NCBI GenBank assembly: GCA_946803585.1
Contig: CAMPEQ010000007.1
Coordinates: 501,336 to 565,335, forward strand
Length of the DNA stretch: 64,000 bases
From: an uncultured Actinomycetes bacterium
GTDB taxonomy: Bacteria; Actinomycetota; Actinomycetes; S36-B12; UBA10799
Direction: 5' to 3'
Position numbers and translations under genes: made by a program. The notes under the pieces were generated by a model. The model saw only the letters and a program-made list of their open reading frames with translations. It was not told the DNA's origin and searched no databases. The stretch's first letter is position 1; the number at the start of each line of letters is the position of its first letter. Shown here piece after piece: positions 1,336 through 9,453 of this stretch.

Positions 1336-2079
1336 CTAGCAGATTGCGGAGAGGAAGTCGGCTAACTCTCGTCGCCGACCGGTATAAAACGGAATCTCTT
1401 CCCGCACGTGCATCCTCGCGCGGGAAGCCCGTAGGTCCCGCATCAAATCAACGATGCGATCCAACTTGTCGGCCTCGAATGCCAAAATCCACTCATAGTC
1501 CCCTAGTGAGAAGGCTGGCACCGTATTCGCCCGGACATCTGGATATCCGCGGCCCATTTTGCCATGCTCAGCGAGCAATTCCCGGCGCTGCTCGTCAGGG
1601 AGCAAGTACCACTCGAACGATCGCACGAACGGGTAAACACTGACGTAGTCCCTGGCTCGCTCATCCGCTAGGAACGCTGGCACGTGGGACTTATTGAACT
1701 CCGCCGGACGATGAAGTGCCATCTGTGACCAAACACCGGTCAGGCTCTGGCCTAGGCCGCTGTTTAGCAGCCCGTGGTACGCCTCTTGCAGAGCGTCGCT
1801 CGTGGGGGCATGGGTCCAGAGCATGAGGTCTGCGTCCGCTCGAAACCCAGCGACGTCGTACCAGCCACGGAGTTTCACGTCCGTGGTGTCAGCTAAGCCC
1901 GCGAGTAGCCCATCAACCTCATCAGCGAGTTGCTCCGATGGACTATTCAACGTCGATCGATCGATCTTGAACACCGACCACATCGCGTAACGGACTACGT
2001 TGTTGAGATCTCGCGCCTTAGGCTTTACCGTCGGCGTCTCGGCGTCGCCGGGACTCGGTTCATGTGTCTGCTCAGCCAT
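1336..2079 (-). CDS. hemQ: Coproheme decarboxylase (HemQ/ChdC, chlorite dismutase family)
   Basis: YVSVYPFVRSFEWYLLP, GRGYPDVRANTVPAFSLGDYEWILAFE, and position next to hemY. Confidence 0.93.
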   Translation of the reverse strand: MAEQTHEPSPGDAETPTVKPKARDLNNVVRYAMWSVFKIDRSTLNSPSEQLADEVDGLLAGLADTTDVKLRGWYDVAGFRADADLMLWTHAPTSDALQEAYHGLLNSGLGQSLTGVWSQMALHRPAEFNKSHVPAFLADERARDYVSVYPFVRSFEWYLLPDEQRRELLAEHGKMGRGYPDVRANTVPAFSLGDYEWILAFEADKLDRIVDLMRDLRASRARMHVREEIPFYTGRRRELADFLSAIC

Positions 2080-3712
2080 GTGCGATCCGTCCTCGTTCTT
2101 TCAAATAGCCGGCGGTCTGACCCGCAGCGAACTGTGCGGAGCCGATACACGCCGGAATGCCAACACCATCGTAGGCCGCACCGCACAATGATATCCCGGG
2201 TGTCGACGACAGCGCTTCACGTGCCGACATCATCCGCTCTCGATGACCCACTGTGTACTGCGGAAGCGAGTCGTCCCAGCGAGTAATAGTGCTCGCGACA
2301 GGCTTGGCAGACAACCCGGCAATCGCGGCCAGGTCTTTTACCGCAACCTGAGCAAGTTCGTCGTTGCTGTGCTCTTGAACGAACGGATCGCCGAAGCGAC
2401 CAAGCGATGTTCGAACGACGGCAACGCTGCGCTTGTTTCCCTCGGAGTCCCGTGCACGCGCGCCTGCCCGTGCAACCCATGACCACTTCCGCGAGGCATA
2501 CGTTGCGGCCTTCACTGCGAACCCCTCCACCGGCGGGACCAAAAAGCCGCTGCCAGAGACAGTCGCCGGAATATCGTCCGGTGAATACATCAATGTTGCG
2601 AGGGCAACCGAGGCGTAGGGAACGGTATCCAGTAGCACGGCTGCCGCGGGATTGACCTTTGCCAGCATCTTCGCTGCCGCGGGCGCTGGCACCGCCACCA
2701 CCACGGCATCGAAGTCTTGCGGAGTCGACCGCCCGTCGATTCGAGCCGAGACTCGCCAGCCAGCACTCGTCCGACGAATCGTCGACACCGGCGCATCACA
2801 CTCGATCTGCACACCTCGTTGCTTAAGCCGATCCGCCATCGCGATTGGCAGGCGCCCTAATCCGCCAGAAATTCCTGCAAAGATCGGTCCGCCCTTACGT
2901 GCTCCACTGTTGGCGGCGCCGGTTGCGCGTGCTTCTCGGGCGGCCACCAGCAACGACTTCTCTCGCCGGGCAAGGCGGTAGAGCGCGGGCACCGTCATCT
3001 CGAGGCTGAGGTTGTCTGCTTGACCGGCATAGACTCCCCCGAGCATTGGCTCCACGAGTCGGTCAACTACCTCGCGGCCGACTCTGGTCGTAACGTAGTC
3101 ACCAATCGAGATGTCGCCGGTTAAGTCCGTCTTAGGAAGCACATGATCGAGCGGGATCCTCATCAGCCCCGGAACGCTCATAACGTCGCTTGCTGCCAGC
3201 GCCCGTAGATCTGTGGGGATTCCGCTTATGAGACCAGCTGGAAGCGGCTGTAATTCCCCATGAGCGACGACACTGGCCTTCATGGTCGAGGGACTCACCA
3301 GGGATGAACTCAGGCCCGCTGCCTTGGCCATTGCGATTGCTTCGGGCCGGACGGCAAGCATGGACTCGGCACCGGCATCGAGATTGATCCCCTCCAGTTC
3401 CAGCAACTGCAACTTGCCGCCAACGGAGGAGCTGGACTCGAAGACCGTGATCTCGGCATCAACGTTGCGGTCCTTGACGAGCGACCAGGCTGCCGACAAT
3501 CCAGCGATTCCTCCGCCAATGATCGCGATCCTGGGAGTGGGTTCTCCTGGCCTGCTCGTGGTTGCCACGGACTCCTCCACTGACTCACCATCGCCAGGTC
3601 GCTTACCCGTGAGCGCAACCTCAGCAATGTCAGCGACATCTTGTGCAAGGCTCGTCACCAGATCACCGGCGATCAAGCGCAGACTCGGACGTGGGGACCG
3701 CGGTTCAGCCAT
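2072..3712 (-). CDS. hemY: Protoporphyrinogen/coproporphyrinogen III oxidase (HemY/CgoX)
   Basis: FAD motif IAIIGGGIAGLSAAWSL, EGINLDAGAESMLAVRPEAIAMAKAAGL, C-terminal GVGIPACIGSAQFAA. Overlaps hemQ by 8 bp. Confidence 0.92.
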   Translation of the reverse strand: MAEPRSPRPSLRLIAGDLVTSLAQDVADIAEVALTGKRPGDGESVEESVATTSRPGEPTPRIAIIGGGIAGLSAAWSLVKDRNVDAEITVFESSSSVGGKLQLLELEGINLDAGAESMLAVRPEAIAMAKAAGLSSSLVSPSTMKASVVAHGELQPLPAGLISGIPTDLRALAASDVMSVPGLMRIPLDHVLPKTDLTGDISIGDYVTTRVGREVVDRLVEPMLGGVYAGQADNLSLEMTVPALYRLARREKSLLVAAREARATGAANSGARKGGPIFAGISGGLGRLPIAMADRLKQRGVQIECDAPVSTIRRTSAGWRVSARIDGRSTPQDFDAVVVAVPAPAAAKMLAKVNPAAAVLLDTVPYASVALATLMYSPDDIPATVSGSGFLVPPVEGFAVKAATYASRKWSWVARAGARARDSEGNKRSVAVVRTSLGRFGDPFVQEHSNDELAQVAVKDLAAIAGLSAKPVASTITRWDDSLPQYTVGHRERMMSAREALSSTPGISLCGAAYDGVGIPACIGSAQFAAGQTAGYLKERGRIAHG

Positions 3713-3800
3713 AGCGTCACTCTCTCACTCTCAGGCTTCCCTCGCTCACTTTCGGCACCGTGTTCCACTCCAAAACCACAGCAGCAGCACCTGCCGTGAA

Positions 3801-4223
3801 CTACTTAACCGCCAGGAACTGCGCCGAGAGGTCGAGTTGCCGAGCCGGAAGACCAAGGAGTCGAGCAACTCGCGAAATGAAGCTTGCAGCATCGCGCAGC
3901 GAGTCATCAGCTTCCCTGGTGGTGACCACAACGGTGCCCGACGATGCAGCGGCGCGCTTCTCGGAACTGTAGTTGAACAGCTCGGCCCACTCTGCAAGTT
4001 CGGGTGCGAACCTAACAAGCAACTGCCAAACATTCGTAACGCGAGCGCGCGGAGCCGGTAGAGTCGATGTTTGCGTCGACCTGTCGGCCACCATCGCAGC
4101 GGCGGCACGAAGGGCGGCGAGTTGGGCGTCAACGTATCGCCGGGTTGGGTCAGACTCCCTCGCCGAAGTCCCCAAACCACTGATTGCCAACCGGACTAGG
4201 TCATGAGCTTCACTCGAACACAT
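3801..4223 (-). CDS. SAV_6107-type HEPN domain protein
   Basis: 140-aa helical protein with RYVDAQLAALRAAAAMVADR and VWQLLVRFAPELAEWAELF, recognised as the SAV_6107/HEPN pattern. Confidence 0.75.
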   Translation of the reverse strand: MCSSEAHDLVRLAISGLGTSARESDPTRRYVDAQLAALRAAAAMVADRSTQTSTLPAPRARVTNVWQLLVRFAPELAEWAELFNYSSEKRAAASSGTVVVTTREADDSLRDAASFISRVARLLGLPARQLDLSAQFLAVK

Positions 4224-4229
4224 GTTCGA
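4214..4229. promoter_or_regulatory. Putative LexA/SOS box TCGAACACATGTTCGA
   Basis: Perfect 16-bp palindrome matching the recalled actinobacterial SOS-box consensus TCGAAC-N4-GTTCGA. Overlaps the start codon (4221-4223) of the HEPN gene. Confidence 0.65.
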
Positions 4230-4341
4230 AGCGTAGTCGTCTGGCTTGCCCTAGTCAACCACTATTCCGGCGTAGTTGCCGCGACCCGGCAGCCAGCTAC
4301 CGCCTCCAAAATTCCTGACCCTGACCCGAAACGCGCGGTGG

Positions 4342-4380: not shown

Positions 4381-5109
4381 ATGGCCGAGACGCAGCGAGT
4401 CCCTCCAACAGTGGTTGTCCACTTGTGGGGTGTGAGCTTGCGTGGGCTTCCTGGCTCGTTCATCCGAATGGCGACGCAGCCATGGCTGCTACGCGAAGGA
4501 GCCCGACGACGCAGCCACGGCCTACGGTTCGCCAAGCTTGTGGGTACTGGCTCTGGCCAATCCTTCAGCGTTCGCGATGCGGATCCACGTCACTGGGGCT
4601 TGATCACCGCGTGGGACGACGAGGCTGACGCACGCGTATTCGAGCAAAGTGACGTGGTGACCAACTGGGACCGCCACTCGTTCGAGAAGGCACGGTTCGT
4701 GCTCGATCCGATACATAGTCGTGGCCAGTGGGGAGGCAAAGAGCCCTTCAGCCCCGGAACCAGAACGACGCAGGACTCCCCGATCGCAGCTATCACCCGA
4801 GCTCGCGTGCGCGCCACTGCGTGGCGACTCTTCAGTTCGGCAGTCCCACCCGTGGCTGCAGCAGCGAATGATTCTGCGGGCCTACTACTGAGCACCGGAA
4901 TTGGTGAAGCTCCGATCGGCCTACAGGGCACCTTCTCGATCTGGCGCGATTCCGCCGCCTTGCGCAGCTTTGCACAGGGCTCCTCCCATCAACTTGTTGT
5001 CGATCGCACAGCGAGCACCGGTTGGTATTCCGAGGAGCTCTTCGCCCGGTTCAGCGTGAGATCGGCTCTCGGCGAGTTCTGTCACAAGTCGGTGGACTTC
5101 AGTCGATGA
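4381..5109 (+). CDS. crtA: Spheroidene monooxygenase-like protein (CrtA family)
   Basis: GLRFAKLVGTGSGQSF, QWGGKEPFSP, SPIAAITRARVR and GIGEAPIGLQGTFSIW...WYSEELFARF line up with recalled CrtA sequence blocks. Confidence 0.85.
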   Translation: MAETQRVPPTVVVHLWGVSLRGLPGSFIRMATQPWLLREGARRRSHGLRFAKLVGTGSGQSFSVRDADPRHWGLITAWDDEADARVFEQSDVVTNWDRHSFEKARFVLDPIHSRGQWGGKEPFSPGTRTTQDSPIAAITRARVRATAWRLFSSAVPPVAAAANDSAGLLLSTGIGEAPIGLQGTFSIWRDSAALRSFAQGSSHQLVVDRTASTGWYSEELFARFSVRSALGEFCHKSVDFSR

Positions 5110-5963
5110 GCCATCCCACCCAGTCGTCTCAGGATCGCCCCGCGACGCGGACTAGCTGGATTCCGTGGGTCGGGCTGGTAGCCACTATTGGCCTTCAGAT
5201 CTTGTGGCCGCTGTCTTCTGGCCAGCCAAGGATTGCGCTCACAATCACAACTGTGATCGTCTTTGCGGCCACTAGCGTTAGTCATGCGTGGGTGACCCAC
5301 GGGGCCGGCTGGGCGATGGCCTACCTCGGCATCACGTTCGGGTTCGCGTTCGCCCTTGAAGCGGTCGGCACCAATAGCGGATTCCCGTTCGGGGCATACG
5401 AGTACGGCGACATGCTGGGAGTGCGCGTTACCGACGTGCCCCTGCTCATCCCCCTCGCCTGGGCAATGACTGCCTACCCGGTACTGCTACTGAGTCGGCG
5501 TATTGCACAGTCCTTCACTAGCGCGGGCGTAATCCGGTACGTCGCAACGACCGCGGTAGGCGCATTCGCCATGACAACCTGGGATCTCTTCCTCGACCCG
5601 CAAATGGTCTCGCAGGACTACTGGGTGTGGCGTGATCCCTCACCCGCCCTGCCGGGAATTGAAGGGATACCTGCGGGCAACTATCTGGGCTGGCTAGTCG
5701 GAAGCGCAATCCTGATCGCTCTACTTAACTCCTTGCCGACGAGAATCGCTGATGAGCGAGTTCCGGCTGCACTCTGGACATGGACCTGGGTCGGCGGAAT
5801 CATCTCGAATGCCTTCTTCTTCGGCCGCCCATCTGTTGCCGTCGTTGGCGGTATTGCGATGGGATTGGTAACGGTTCCCTACCTCTACCTCCTCACCAGG
5901 GATCGACGAACTCCCACCAGCAGCCAAGCCGCCGACCAGCCCCTGGCACAGGTGGATCAGTGA
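5106..5963 (+). CDS. cruF: CruF-like carotenoid 1',2'-hydratase family membrane protein (DUF422)
   Basis: ALEAVGTNSGFPFGAYEYGDMLGVRVTDVPLLIPLAW and FAMTTWDLFLDPQMV...GNYLGWLVG. ATGA overlap with the crtA-like gene. Confidence 0.85.
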   Translation: MSHPTQSSQDRPATRTSWIPWVGLVATIGLQILWPLSSGQPRIALTITTVIVFAATSVSHAWVTHGAGWAMAYLGITFGFAFALEAVGTNSGFPFGAYEYGDMLGVRVTDVPLLIPLAWAMTAYPVLLLSRRIAQSFTSAGVIRYVATTAVGAFAMTTWDLFLDPQMVSQDYWVWRDPSPALPGIEGIPAGNYLGWLVGSAILIALLNSLPTRIADERVPAALWTWTWVGGIISNAFFFGRPSVAVVGGIAMGLVTVPYLYLLTRDRRTPTSSQAADQPLAQVDQ

Positions 5964-7174
5964 ACTCGCTCGTTCCTCCCCGGTCGACGACGGTGCAACC
6001 ACGGCGGTGGCGACGACCACTCCAGATAGCGATGGCGGTATCGGCAGGACTTGGTGTTGCCCTCGCCGGCCAAACACTGCGCAACTGCCGAGCGCTGCCA
6101 TCAGTGACAGTCCGAAAACCCACTAGCGAAGAGCCTGATATGAGCAACAACGTCGGCACCCGCGCGGGGCAAACACCCACACCGACGATCGCAGTCTTAC
6201 TTCCCGTTCGAAATGAGCAACGCAACATTCGCCAGTGTCTGGATTCCATCCTTGCCCAGCAAGGAGTGACCGAGATCATCGTGCTGGATGATCAATCAAC
6301 AGATGACACCGCTGAGATGGCCGCTGAGCTGCTTGGATCAGATCCACGCGCACAACTGATCCTTGGCGAGAGTGACCCACCCGAGAACTGGCTGGGGAAG
6401 CCGTGGGCGTGCGCCCGACTTGCCGCGGCGACGAATGCCGACGTGCTCGTCTTCGTCGATGCCGACGTCGTCTTGGAACCTTCCGCCGTCGTGGCCTCCA
6501 CCGACCTGCTGATCGCGGAGGGTCTGGCCATGCTGTGTCCCTATCCGCAGCAGGACGCCAACACCGCTCTCACTCGACTCATTCAGCCCCTCTTGCAATG
6601 GTCGTGGCTTACCTTCATTCCCTACCGCTACTCCATGACCGCACAACCACCGTCGATGGCCGTTGGCAATGGCCAACTCGCGCTGTTTACCCGGGATGCC
6701 TACTTGCAGGTCGGAGGCCACCACGCCGTTGCCAATGAAGTTGTCGAAGACATCGCTCTCGCGCGAGCGCTTCGCAGCGCTGGAATGCGTACCGCAGTTG
6801 TCGATGGTCACCAGATCGCCACCTGCAAGATGTACGCGACCGACCGCGAGTTGATAGACGGCTACACCAAATCCCTCTGGCAGGCATTCGGCCCTCCCGT
6901 CCAGCAACTCAGCACCCTGGGACTTCTCGCCTACCTCTATCTACTCCCCCCGATTGCGCTCAGCAGTAGTGACCGCCCAACTCGGGTCTCGACGATAGTG
7001 GCGATGGCAGCGGCAGTGGTCGGGCGTGGCTTGGTCGCACACCGAACCGGACAACGGATACTCCCGGAAGTCGCCTTTGCGCCTGTCGCGGTCGGCGGAC
7101 TGATCGCCCTCACCGCGTTGTCAACATATCGCCGTGCACGGGGGCAGCTAACGTGGAAGGGCCGCCGGGTATAG
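5960..7174 (+). CDS. Family 2 glycosyltransferase, possibly CruG-like
   Basis: TIAVLLPVRNEQRNIRQCLDSI, VLDDQSTDDT, DVLVFVDADVVL. GTG start at 5960 overlaps the cruF-like stop. Confidence 0.85.
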   Translation: MNSLVPPRSTTVQPRRWRRPLQIAMAVSAGLGVALAGQTLRNCRALPSVTVRKPTSEEPDMSNNVGTRAGQTPTPTIAVLLPVRNEQRNIRQCLDSILAQQGVTEIIVLDDQSTDDTAEMAAELLGSDPRAQLILGESDPPENWLGKPWACARLAAATNADVLVFVDADVVLEPSAVVASTDLLIAEGLAMLCPYPQQDANTALTRLIQPLLQWSWLTFIPYRYSMTAQPPSMAVGNGQLALFTRDAYLQVGGHHAVANEVVEDIALARALRSAGMRTAVVDGHQIATCKMYATDRELIDGYTKSLWQAFGPPVQQLSTLGLLAYLYLLPPIALSSSDRPTRVSTIVAMAAAVVGRGLVAHRTGQRILPEVAFAPVAVGGLIALTALSTYRRARGQLTWKGRRV

Positions 7175-7939
7175 CGGCTGACGATCTTTGATCGCGGCCC
7201 ATAGCCGGGTGCCAAACTCGAAGTGCCACCACTCACAGTCGAGCTGGACGAATCCAGCCGTGACCATCACGCAGCGCAGTAGCCGACGTAAGTCTCGCAC
7301 CATCCGGTCAGCATCGCCCGCACCATCCGGGGCCCCAACCTGCTCGAAGTAGTCACTAGTCGCGGCCGGGACGAACTCGTCAAATCTTGTGCCCAGATTG
7401 AGCGGAACTGACTGCCAAGTCAGGGTCACATCTAGCGTGCCACCTGTCGCATGTGGCGGGGGCCTAGTCGCATCTAGTGAGGGCGGACTGACGAACCCCG
7501 GTGCGAGACCACCATCTTGGTAAGCGACCGTATGAAGCTCACGCTGGAGTTGTGGGTCACGCCAGCCGTCCCACACGGCGAAACCAAATCCTGGTGGGAG
7601 CTGACGCAGCGCCAACCGCAGCGCTGCTCGGGTTCCTTCTCGGATCATCGCGCTGGGGACCGCATGCGGCCAACCCTCGTGCCAATAGGCGCCGAGATCA
7701 CGGATGAGCGCGGTGTCGATTGCTACCAGGCTCTCCTGTCGACCATAGGCCTGCTCGGGTGAGACAGGCGGGAACGAGTCCCCGCTCGGATCGCCCAACA
7801 GCGACGGGATTGCCGAGTAGGTCGAAAGATCCGGTATCGCCGGAATGTCAGGGACCACCACCGAAATCGATTCAACGTCGACGCCACACCACTGGTAAGT
7901 CGGCAACTGCGAGAGCCGGTGCTGATGATCGTGAGCCAT
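7148..7939 (-). CDS. D-alanyl-D-alanine dipeptidase (VanX/DdpX-like)
   Basis: PPHATGGTLDVTL and CEWWHFEFG zinc-ligand motifs, GFAVWDGWRDPQLQRELH. Confidence 0.85.
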   Translation of the reverse strand: MAHDHQHRLSQLPTYQWCGVDVESISVVVPDIPAIPDLSTYSAIPSLLGDPSGDSFPPVSPEQAYGRQESLVAIDTALIRDLGAYWHEGWPHAVPSAMIREGTRAALRLALRQLPPGFGFAVWDGWRDPQLQRELHTVAYQDGGLAPGFVSPPSLDATRPPPHATGGTLDVTLTWQSVPLNLGTRFDEFVPAATSDYFEQVGAPDGAGDADRMVRDLRRLLRCVMVTAGFVQLDCEWWHFEFGTRLWAAIKDRQPLYPAALPR

Positions 7940-7959
7940 AGGACATATCGTCGGGCACC

Positions 7960-9453
7960 GTGGCACAGGTGATTGTGATCGGGGCAGGCATCGGCGGTTT
8001 GGCGACAGCTGCCCGATTGGGCGTCAAGGGACACGATGTGACCGTCCTGGAGCAAGCTGACTCAGTCGGAGGGAAGGCACAGTCCTTCACTCGCGACGGT
8101 TTCGTCTTCGATACTGGGCCAAGTCTGTTGACACTGCCCGCGGTGTATCGCGACCTCTTCCTCAAGACGGGATCCGCGCTTGAAGAGAACGTGGATCTGC
8201 AACCAGTAGACCCAGGCACGGCCTACTGGTGGCCAGATGGTGCTCACGTCACCCTTCCTGGAGTCGGGCCCGCTGCCATCGCGAACACGCTCGGTGAGAC
8301 CTTCGGTGGGACTGCCCGCGAGGATTGGCTCGCCCTGATGGCTCGGGCCGCTGACATCTGGGAGATCACTCGACGTCCGTTCCTGGAAGCCCCGCTTTCC
8401 GGACTACCTGATTTGATGCGCCTGGCAAAGGACCCTAAGGACGTCAAGACTGTGGCTCCGTGGCAATCGCTGCGTTCACTTGGCAAGCGATACCTACAAG
8501 ATCCGCACCTGCGAGATCTACTGGACCGGTATGCCACGTACTCGGGATCAGACCCCCGAAAGGCACCCGCGGCGCTGGCCACAATTCCCTACGTCGAGCA
8601 GACCTTTGGCAGCTGGCATATCGGCGGCGGGGTCCATCACTTGGCGGACGCACTAGCCCAACGTTGCCTCGAGCGGAAGGTCACCATCGAGCTTGGGACT
8701 GACGTCGTTTCAATCGACCTACTTGGTGGCGAAGTGAGCTCGGTGACCACTGCCGACGGCCGAGTTCACCCCGCAGATATCGTCGTTGCGAATGCCGACG
8801 CCTCGCATGTCTACACCGACCTCGTTAGCGACTCGCGAACCAGAGGTCCGCTACGCGGCATCAGTAAGGCCACCGCATCCTTCTCCGGCTTCGTTCTGCT
8901 GCTTGCAGTCAAGGGTCGTACTCCCGGAATTTCACATCACAATGTCTGGTTTGGCCAGGACTACGATGCGGAGTTCGACGCAGTGTTCGGTGGCCAACCC
9001 GCGACCGAACCAACAATCTATGCGTGCGTCCCAGACGATCCAGAGATGCGGCCGGACGATGCTCATGAGTCATGGTTCGTCCTTATCAATGCACCCACCC
9101 ATGGCGACGGTAAGAACCAGTTTGAATGGACCGACGAATTTGCGCAGTCATATGCCGACCAGATGATCGAACTGCTCGCAGCGCGCGGAGTTGACCTACA
9201 CGATCGGATTCTGTGGCGAGAAGTGGTCACTCCGGCCGACTTAGCACACCGAACGCGAGCACCCGGAGGATCGATCTACGGGACTTCCAGTAACGGAATG
9301 CGCGCTGCATTTTTGCGACCGTCTAACAAGTCCCCGATTCCCGGGCTATTCCTCGTCGGCGGTTCCGCGCATCCCGGTGGCGGCCTGCCGCTCGTCGGAA
9401 TGTCAGCCGACATCGTGGCAACTCAGATCGGCCGAGCTAAGAAGCGTCGCTAG
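7960..9453 (+). CDS. CrtI/CrtD-family carotenoid desaturase, possibly 3,4-desaturase
   Basis: VIVIGAGIGGLATAARL, VFDTGPSLLTLPAVYRDLF, C-terminal GLFLVGGSAHPGGGLPLVGMSADIVA. GTG start. Confidence 0.85.
   Translation: MAQVIVIGAGIGGLATAARLGVKGHDVTVLEQADSVGGKAQSFTRDGFVFDTGPSLLTLPAVYRDLFLKTGSALEENVDLQPVDPGTAYWWPDGAHVTLPGVGPAAIANTLGETFGGTAREDWLALMARAADIWEITRRPFLEAPLSGLPDLMRLAKDPKDVKTVAPWQSLRSLGKRYLQDPHLRDLLDRYATYSGSDPRKAPAALATIPYVEQTFGSWHIGGGVHHLADALAQRCLERKVTIELGTDVVSIDLLGGEVSSVTTADGRVHPADIVVANADASHVYTDLVSDSRTRGPLRGISKATASFSGFVLLLAVKGRTPGISHHNVWFGQDYDAEFDAVFGGQPATEPTIYACVPDDPEMRPDDAHESWFVLINAPTHGDGKNQFEWTDEFAQSYADQMIELLAARGVDLHDRILWREVVTPADLAHRTRAPGGSIYGTSSNGMRAAFLRPSNKSPIPGLFLVGGSAHPGGGLPLVGMSADIVATQIGRAKKRR

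Follow-up and report, generated by a model that had tools for sequence, protein, structure and literature searches.

A predicted LexA operator over the start codon of an HEPN_SAV_6107 gene points to a conserved SOS family of Actinomycetes and a possible accessory of error-prone polymerases

The window, i.e., the whole stretch of 64,000 nucleotides from an uncultured Actinomycetes bacterium that was analyzed here, carries a gene encoding a protein of the HEPN_SAV_6107 family, the start codon of which is covered by a site resembling the SOS box of actinobacteria (Table 1). The assignment to this family, which had originally been predicted from the sequence, was borne out by the PF18726 profile, which the protein matched with 93.7 bits against a curated cut-off of 27.2. 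Downstream of the HEPN gene are hemY, hemQ and msrB, which overlap one another, and a gene resembling crtA is divergently oriented on the other side of the box.

Table 1. Features of the HEPN locus, with positions given in the window
Feature	Position	Strand	Remarks
HEPN_SAV_6107 (PF18726) gene, 140 aa	3801..4223	-	E 1.1e-26; ATG inside box
Predicted LexA operator (SOS box) TCGAACACATGTTCGA	4214..4229	.	12/12 consensus; same motif at lexA, recA, ruvC, imuA', DUF222 genes
Putative -10 hexamer TACGCT (TANNNT type)	4230..4235	-	Abuts box; TAnnnT equally placed in G002, G017, G037
Putative -35 hexamer TTGACT	4253..4258	-	17-nt spacer to -10; TTGACC/TTGCGC, equal spacing, in three congeners
hemY-type protoporphyrinogen/coproporphyrinogen oxidase gene	2072..3712	-	88 bp downstream of HEPN, same strand
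hemQ	1336..2079	-	NF042928, E 1.8e-101; overlaps hemY; possible SOS-promoter read-through target
Divergent CrtA-like (spheroidene monooxygenase-like) gene	4381..5109	+	NF045923, E 1.7e-42, under curated cut-off

The site agrees with the actinobacterial LexA motif TCGAAC-N4-GTTCGA at all 12 specified positions and includes the ATG of the HEPN gene (4221-4223, minus strand), as had been proposed. The original prediction of a perfect 16-bp palindrome was right as to position but not as to perfection; the reverse complement is TCGAACATGTGTTCGA and the site is palindromic in 14 of its 16 positions, with two arms of 7 bp (7+7) flanking a non-palindromic 2-bp center (CA). The exact motif was found once in the window and four times in the whole genome (2.71 Mb, 11 contigs), while only about 0.13 sites per genome would be expected from base composition (Poisson P(>=4) ~1e-5). 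With up to one mismatch allowed, 31 sites were found genome-wide versus 14 for a reversed-pattern control. A chance palindrome over the start codon, for which nothing but the short length of the motif speaks, is hardly credible in light of this excess and of the retention of the box in 4/4 genomes of the genus examined and before 94 of 105 related genes (see below), and this explanation was rejected on both counts.

Read on the strand of the HEPN gene, the upstream sequence has the order TTGACT-N17-TACGCT-TCGAAC-ATG, in which two putative promoter hexamers (partial agreement, 8/12) immediately precede the box. These hexamers were absent from the list produced by a strict sigma-70 promoter scan, such that the promoter call draws on conservation. 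In the congeners G002, G017 and G037, TTG..., a 17-nt spacer and a TAnnnT hexamer are followed by TCGAACATGAGTTCGA, with the ATG equally placed in the box; the layout of -35, N17, -10, box and ATG was thus seen in 4/4 genomes of the genus examined. In a four-way alignment of these genomes, the box represents the longest invariant block, while the flanks and the N-terminal linker of the protein vary. Transcripts usually start 6-7 nt after the -10 hexamer, and leaderless mRNAs are common in actinobacteria. As the -10 hexamer abuts the box, this distance ends on the A of the ATG, suggesting a leaderless HEPN transcript that would start at or next to this A. An operator located from about -6 to +10 around such a start would, when bound by LexA, block RNA polymerase at the promoter.

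Elsewhere in the same genome, the motif was found at lexA, recA and the operon containing imuB, i.e., the genes at which the original prediction had proposed to look for it. On contig C6, an imuA'-imuB-dnaE2 operon opens with imuA' (NF058630), and one exact box precedes this gene by 10 bp; the two remaining exact boxes each precede a DUF222-HNH gene by 16 bp. Boxes with one mismatch were found at lexA (PF01726 + PF00717; two boxes), at recA (PF00154; one box), 38 bp upstream of ruvC (PF02075) and at four DUF222-HNH genes; the remaining one-mismatch sites are mostly within unrelated genes and probably represent chance matches. The occurrence of the same motif at lexA, recA, ruvC, the imuA'-imuB-dnaE2 operon and six DUF222/HNH genes marks it as the LexA box in this lineage. 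The operator TCGAAC-N4-GTTCGA is identical to that of the LexA regulons described in Streptomyces venezuelae (PMC9380542) and Corynebacterium glutamicum (Jochmann et al. 2009, as cited in PMC5055667), and the core targets lexA, recA, ruvC and dnaE2 are shared with these regulons. However, the S. venezuelae report and the C. glutamicum regulon as summarized in PMC5055667 name the HEPN gene neither as an HEPN gene nor as a member of a polymerase operon.

At each of the six DUF222-HNH (13E12-type) genes (L002, L004, L006, L021, L022 and L023), a LexA box that is exact or has one mismatch is located at or close to the start, and much of the predicted SOS regulon would therefore consist of this nuclease-like family.

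The box could, in principle, control either of the neighboring transcription units instead of the HEPN gene. Its end is 151 bp from the ATG of the divergent crtA-like gene at 4381, consistent with the approximately 150 bp of the original prediction, and this proximity is the one argument for the carotenoid gene as the target. In congeners, however, at least about 0.75 kb separates the crtA-like gene from the box, which remains with the HEPN start codon, and most boxed PF18726 loci have no crtA-like neighbor. Regulation of this gene by the box in place of the HEPN gene is very improbable and was rejected based on the congener layouts; the CrtA-like gene is probably not a target. An SOS promoter serving mainly hemY-hemQ-msrB, and thus tying DNA damage to heme synthesis, would fit the shared strand, the short gap, the overlaps among these genes and the HEPN-hemY order kept by six members of the window's family. 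In addition, the gap between HEPN and hemY contains only a single weak terminator-like stem (3782-3796; 0.9 expected by chance), and read-through from the SOS promoter into hemY-hemQ is possible. Heme synthesis as the main purpose of the promoter is nonetheless unlikely, as the HEPN gene and its box are kept together without hemY nearly everywhere else, and as heme synthesis is required without damage, which means that hemY must have another promoter.

In the order Nanopelagicales, 108 of the 148 genomes have PF18726 genes. Among the 105 loci with enough upstream DNA, all of which were oriented before scanning, an exact box was found within 1.3 kb upstream in 94 loci and a one-mismatch box in 8 more; outside of this 1.3-kb zone, no exact box was found in 325 kb from the same loci, and the reversed pattern gave no match. 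Conservation of the start-codon box in the congeners and of an exact box before most PF18726 genes of the order supports the LexA-site reading of the original prediction. In 95 of the 105 loci, the HEPN gene is directly upstream of dnaE2 (Pfam DNA_pol3_alpha + PHP), and in 69 of these 95 a DUF6504 gene (PF20114) is located between the box and HEPN; HEPN precedes hemY in 6 loci and dinB in 3. All loci without a DUF6504 gene ahead of HEPN (36/36) have an exact box. Since the box serves the entire DUF6504-HEPN-dnaE2 operon in most of the order, it could be a genuine LexA operator whose original target was dnaE2 (or DUF6504-dnaE2), with the HEPN gene being passive and the box in the window a relic of the operon. 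This is improbable, as the box is still exact in 6/6 HEPN-hemY and 3/3 HEPN-dinB loci, where dnaE2 is gone from HEPN, as it persists without adjacent dnaE2 in Corynebacterium, Rhodococcus-like and Streptomyces contexts, and as it is unchanged in the genus of the window while the promoter flanks have diverged.

Outside of the order, PF18726 was found in 228 of the 251 Mycobacteriaceae genomes that were sampled; nearly all genomes without it belong to a single genus inferred as Mycobacterium. In Rhodococcus/Nocardia-like loci, the sequence TCGAATN4GTTCGA/G was found between -120 and -240, and exact or one-mismatch boxes were found in Pseudonocardiaceae, Stackebrandtia and other actinomycete families. 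In Streptomyces, CGAACN4GNNCG (or its complement) was found at a near-fixed distance in 42 of 64 loci (background 0.024 per interval), in agreement with the S. venezuelae LexA consensus tCGAAC-N4-GNNCGa (PMC9380542). In Corynebacterium-type loci, the HEPN gene is near mraZ and/or a DUF3040 gene in 17/17 cases, and box-like sites near -240 were found in most. A control search also detected PF18726 in the C. glutamicum genome, in which mraZ is cg2378; the kept order HEPN-DUF3040-mraZ points, by synteny only, to cg2381 as the HEPN gene of this organism. The gene cg2381 has been reported as a LexA-regulon gene of unknown function that is induced by ciprofloxacin to the same level as recA (M = 3.86; PMC5055667). 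The upstream sites mark PF18726 as an SOS gene that is conserved in Actinomycetes.

In the genome of the window, neither dnaE2 nor imuB shares an operon with the HEPN gene; both are located on contig C6, as is imuA'. Among HEPN-hemY genomes with a readable dnaE2 flank, DnaE2A-like proteins were classified by a high score to the DnaE2 of the window's genome and a low score to the other type. One dnaE2 type, DnaE2A-like, was found after imuB in this genome as well as in G002, G012, G032 and G037. All six HEPN-hemY genomes are members of the window's family, to which G022, G042 and G046 also belong; in these three, DUF6504-HEPN-dnaE2 was found with the other dnaE2 type. The HEPN-dinB genome G004 also has the DnaE2A-like type, and the score suggests the same for a second HEPN-dinB genome, G016. 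These patterns suggest that the polymerase operon was exchanged in the HEPN-hemY and HEPN-dinB genomes and that the HEPN gene remained, still accompanied by a LexA box of its own. Within the window's family, G008 and G027 (one of them only 68% complete) have imuB-dnaE2 and no HEPN match; together with the genus inferred as Mycobacterium, these dnaE2-bearing genomes indicate that HEPN is not essential to DnaE2 function.

Across Nanopelagicales, the two dnaE2 types, one linked to imuB and the other to DUF6504-HEPN, substitute for each other between close genomes. G046 carries two PF18726 genes (L069 and L070), each followed by a dnaE2-like sequence; as contamination of this genome is 7%, one copy may be foreign. 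In the streamlined genomes G085 and G093 (genus g23, family f6), a second dnaE scoring in the DnaE2B class was found without a PF18726 match, such that HEPN is either dispensable there or beyond detection.

Descriptions of the ImuA-ImuB-DnaE2 mutasome and of the DnaE2B/ImuB-C systems (PMC12926913 and PMC6511836) can be compared with the arrangement seen in most of the order, where PF18726 is directly upstream of dnaE2 and behind a small DUF6504 gene, a candidate stand-alone ImuB-C; HEPN is mentioned in neither paper. The HEPN gene of the window's genome is apart from imuA'-imuB-dnaE2. A W..E..WW layout is common to the DUF6504 protein (L074:2087-2386 and relatives) and the ImuB C-terminus, and DUF6504 may correspond to the stand-alone ImuB-C described in the literature. 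An hhalign comparison of DUF6504 with the ImuB C-terminal domain, run with one sequence and with 8, aligned the W..E..WW region only and was not significant (probability 0.8%), and a Pfam search of ImuB C-termini gave no DUF6504 match.

The AlphaFold2 model of the HEPN protein is helical and confident (pLDDT 90.7). The nearest solved folds identified by Foldseek are the HEPN domains 2hsb, 1wol and 3o10 (probability 0.96-0.98, TM ~0.5-0.6), with E-values >0.1, and a sequence search with the HEPN profile among solved structures gave no match. Conserved residues of PF18726 include an AxLAALRxAAA helix, W66, E78-W79, F83, R90, G96 and R103-x-ADD-x2-R110. Many HEPN proteins are RNases or toxins, and SOS control is common for toxins. 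Given its fold and predicted SOS control, the window protein could likewise be an RNase or toxin that is induced by damage and arrests growth, and in the wider family an R-x4-H (residues 29-34) is indeed 88-89% conserved within the second helix. However, the window protein has Q34 in place of the family histidine, R-X4-6-H, the HEPN RNase motif, was absent throughout its sequence, and in helix 102-122, where this motif is usually located, family members have R103...R110 but no histidine. Consistent with this, a survey of the HEPN superfamily (Anantharaman 2013; PMC3710099) lists SAV_6107 HEPN among those without R-X4-6-H; the sequence-family match and HEPN fold are common to this family and the window protein, but neighborhood and function of the family are not given in the survey. 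Furthermore, no MNT- or antitoxin-like gene was seen adjoining the HEPN gene, and PADLOC reported no family for the protein. Without the motif, an RNase role is unlikely, and the RNase/toxin candidate was rejected on the absence of the motif and of a PADLOC family; a role in binding or as a scaffold fits better than catalysis.

The explanation that accounts best for these observations, and one that is quite probable as a whole, is that the site is a LexA operator directly repressing the HEPN gene, and that HEPN represents a conserved SOS family, with a translesion accessory as its most likely role. LexA repression of the HEPN gene is strongly supported by the sequence evidence, from which binding of LexA is predicted. 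Upon DNA damage, RecA would be activated and LexA would cleave itself; repression would be relieved, and the HEPN mRNA would begin at the ATG within the box. The protein, proposed to be a non-nuclease helical protein, would accumulate along with DnaE2, ImuA', ImuB and RecA and assist translesion synthesis, and in the window's lineage it would do so from a gene apart from the imuA'-imuB-dnaE2 operon that has kept its own operator. The role as an accessory of DnaE2 or DinB, which is suggested by the [LexA box]-DUF6504-HEPN-dnaE2 operons found across most of the order, is put forward tentatively, with chances slightly short of even. A more specific proposal, in which PF18726 is an SOS-controlled component or regulator of the error-prone polymerase machinery (DUF6504/ImuB-C + DnaE2B, or DinB) left free-standing after an exchange of DnaE2B for ImuA'-ImuB-DnaE2A, is more tentative still.

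SOS boxes, dnaE2 operons and the membership of cg2381 in a LexA regulon are already known. In the openly available literature, which is incomplete, HEPN was not found together with DnaE2 or with ImuB and DnaE2, DUF6504 was unmentioned, and no source was found that classes PF18726 with SOS genes or assigns it to dnaE2 operons; novelty is therefore provisional. Recent surveys of DnaE2 systems do not include PF18726, and the HEPN gene has probably been overlooked as a part of the DNA-damage response of bacteria. An anonymous HEPN family that is widespread in Actinomycetes and common in Streptomyces would thus become a candidate core SOS gene, with the error-prone polymerase DnaE2 as its likely partner. 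The link to dnaE2 or dinB, the leaderless promoter and the family-wide conservation were not part of the original prediction.

Carotenoid genes (crtA-like and/or CruF) were found in divergent orientation beside HEPN/dnaE2 or HEPN/dinB operons in several families of the order (L045, L074, L085, L087 and L109), as well as at 4381-9453 in the window, which suggests an old shared neighborhood.
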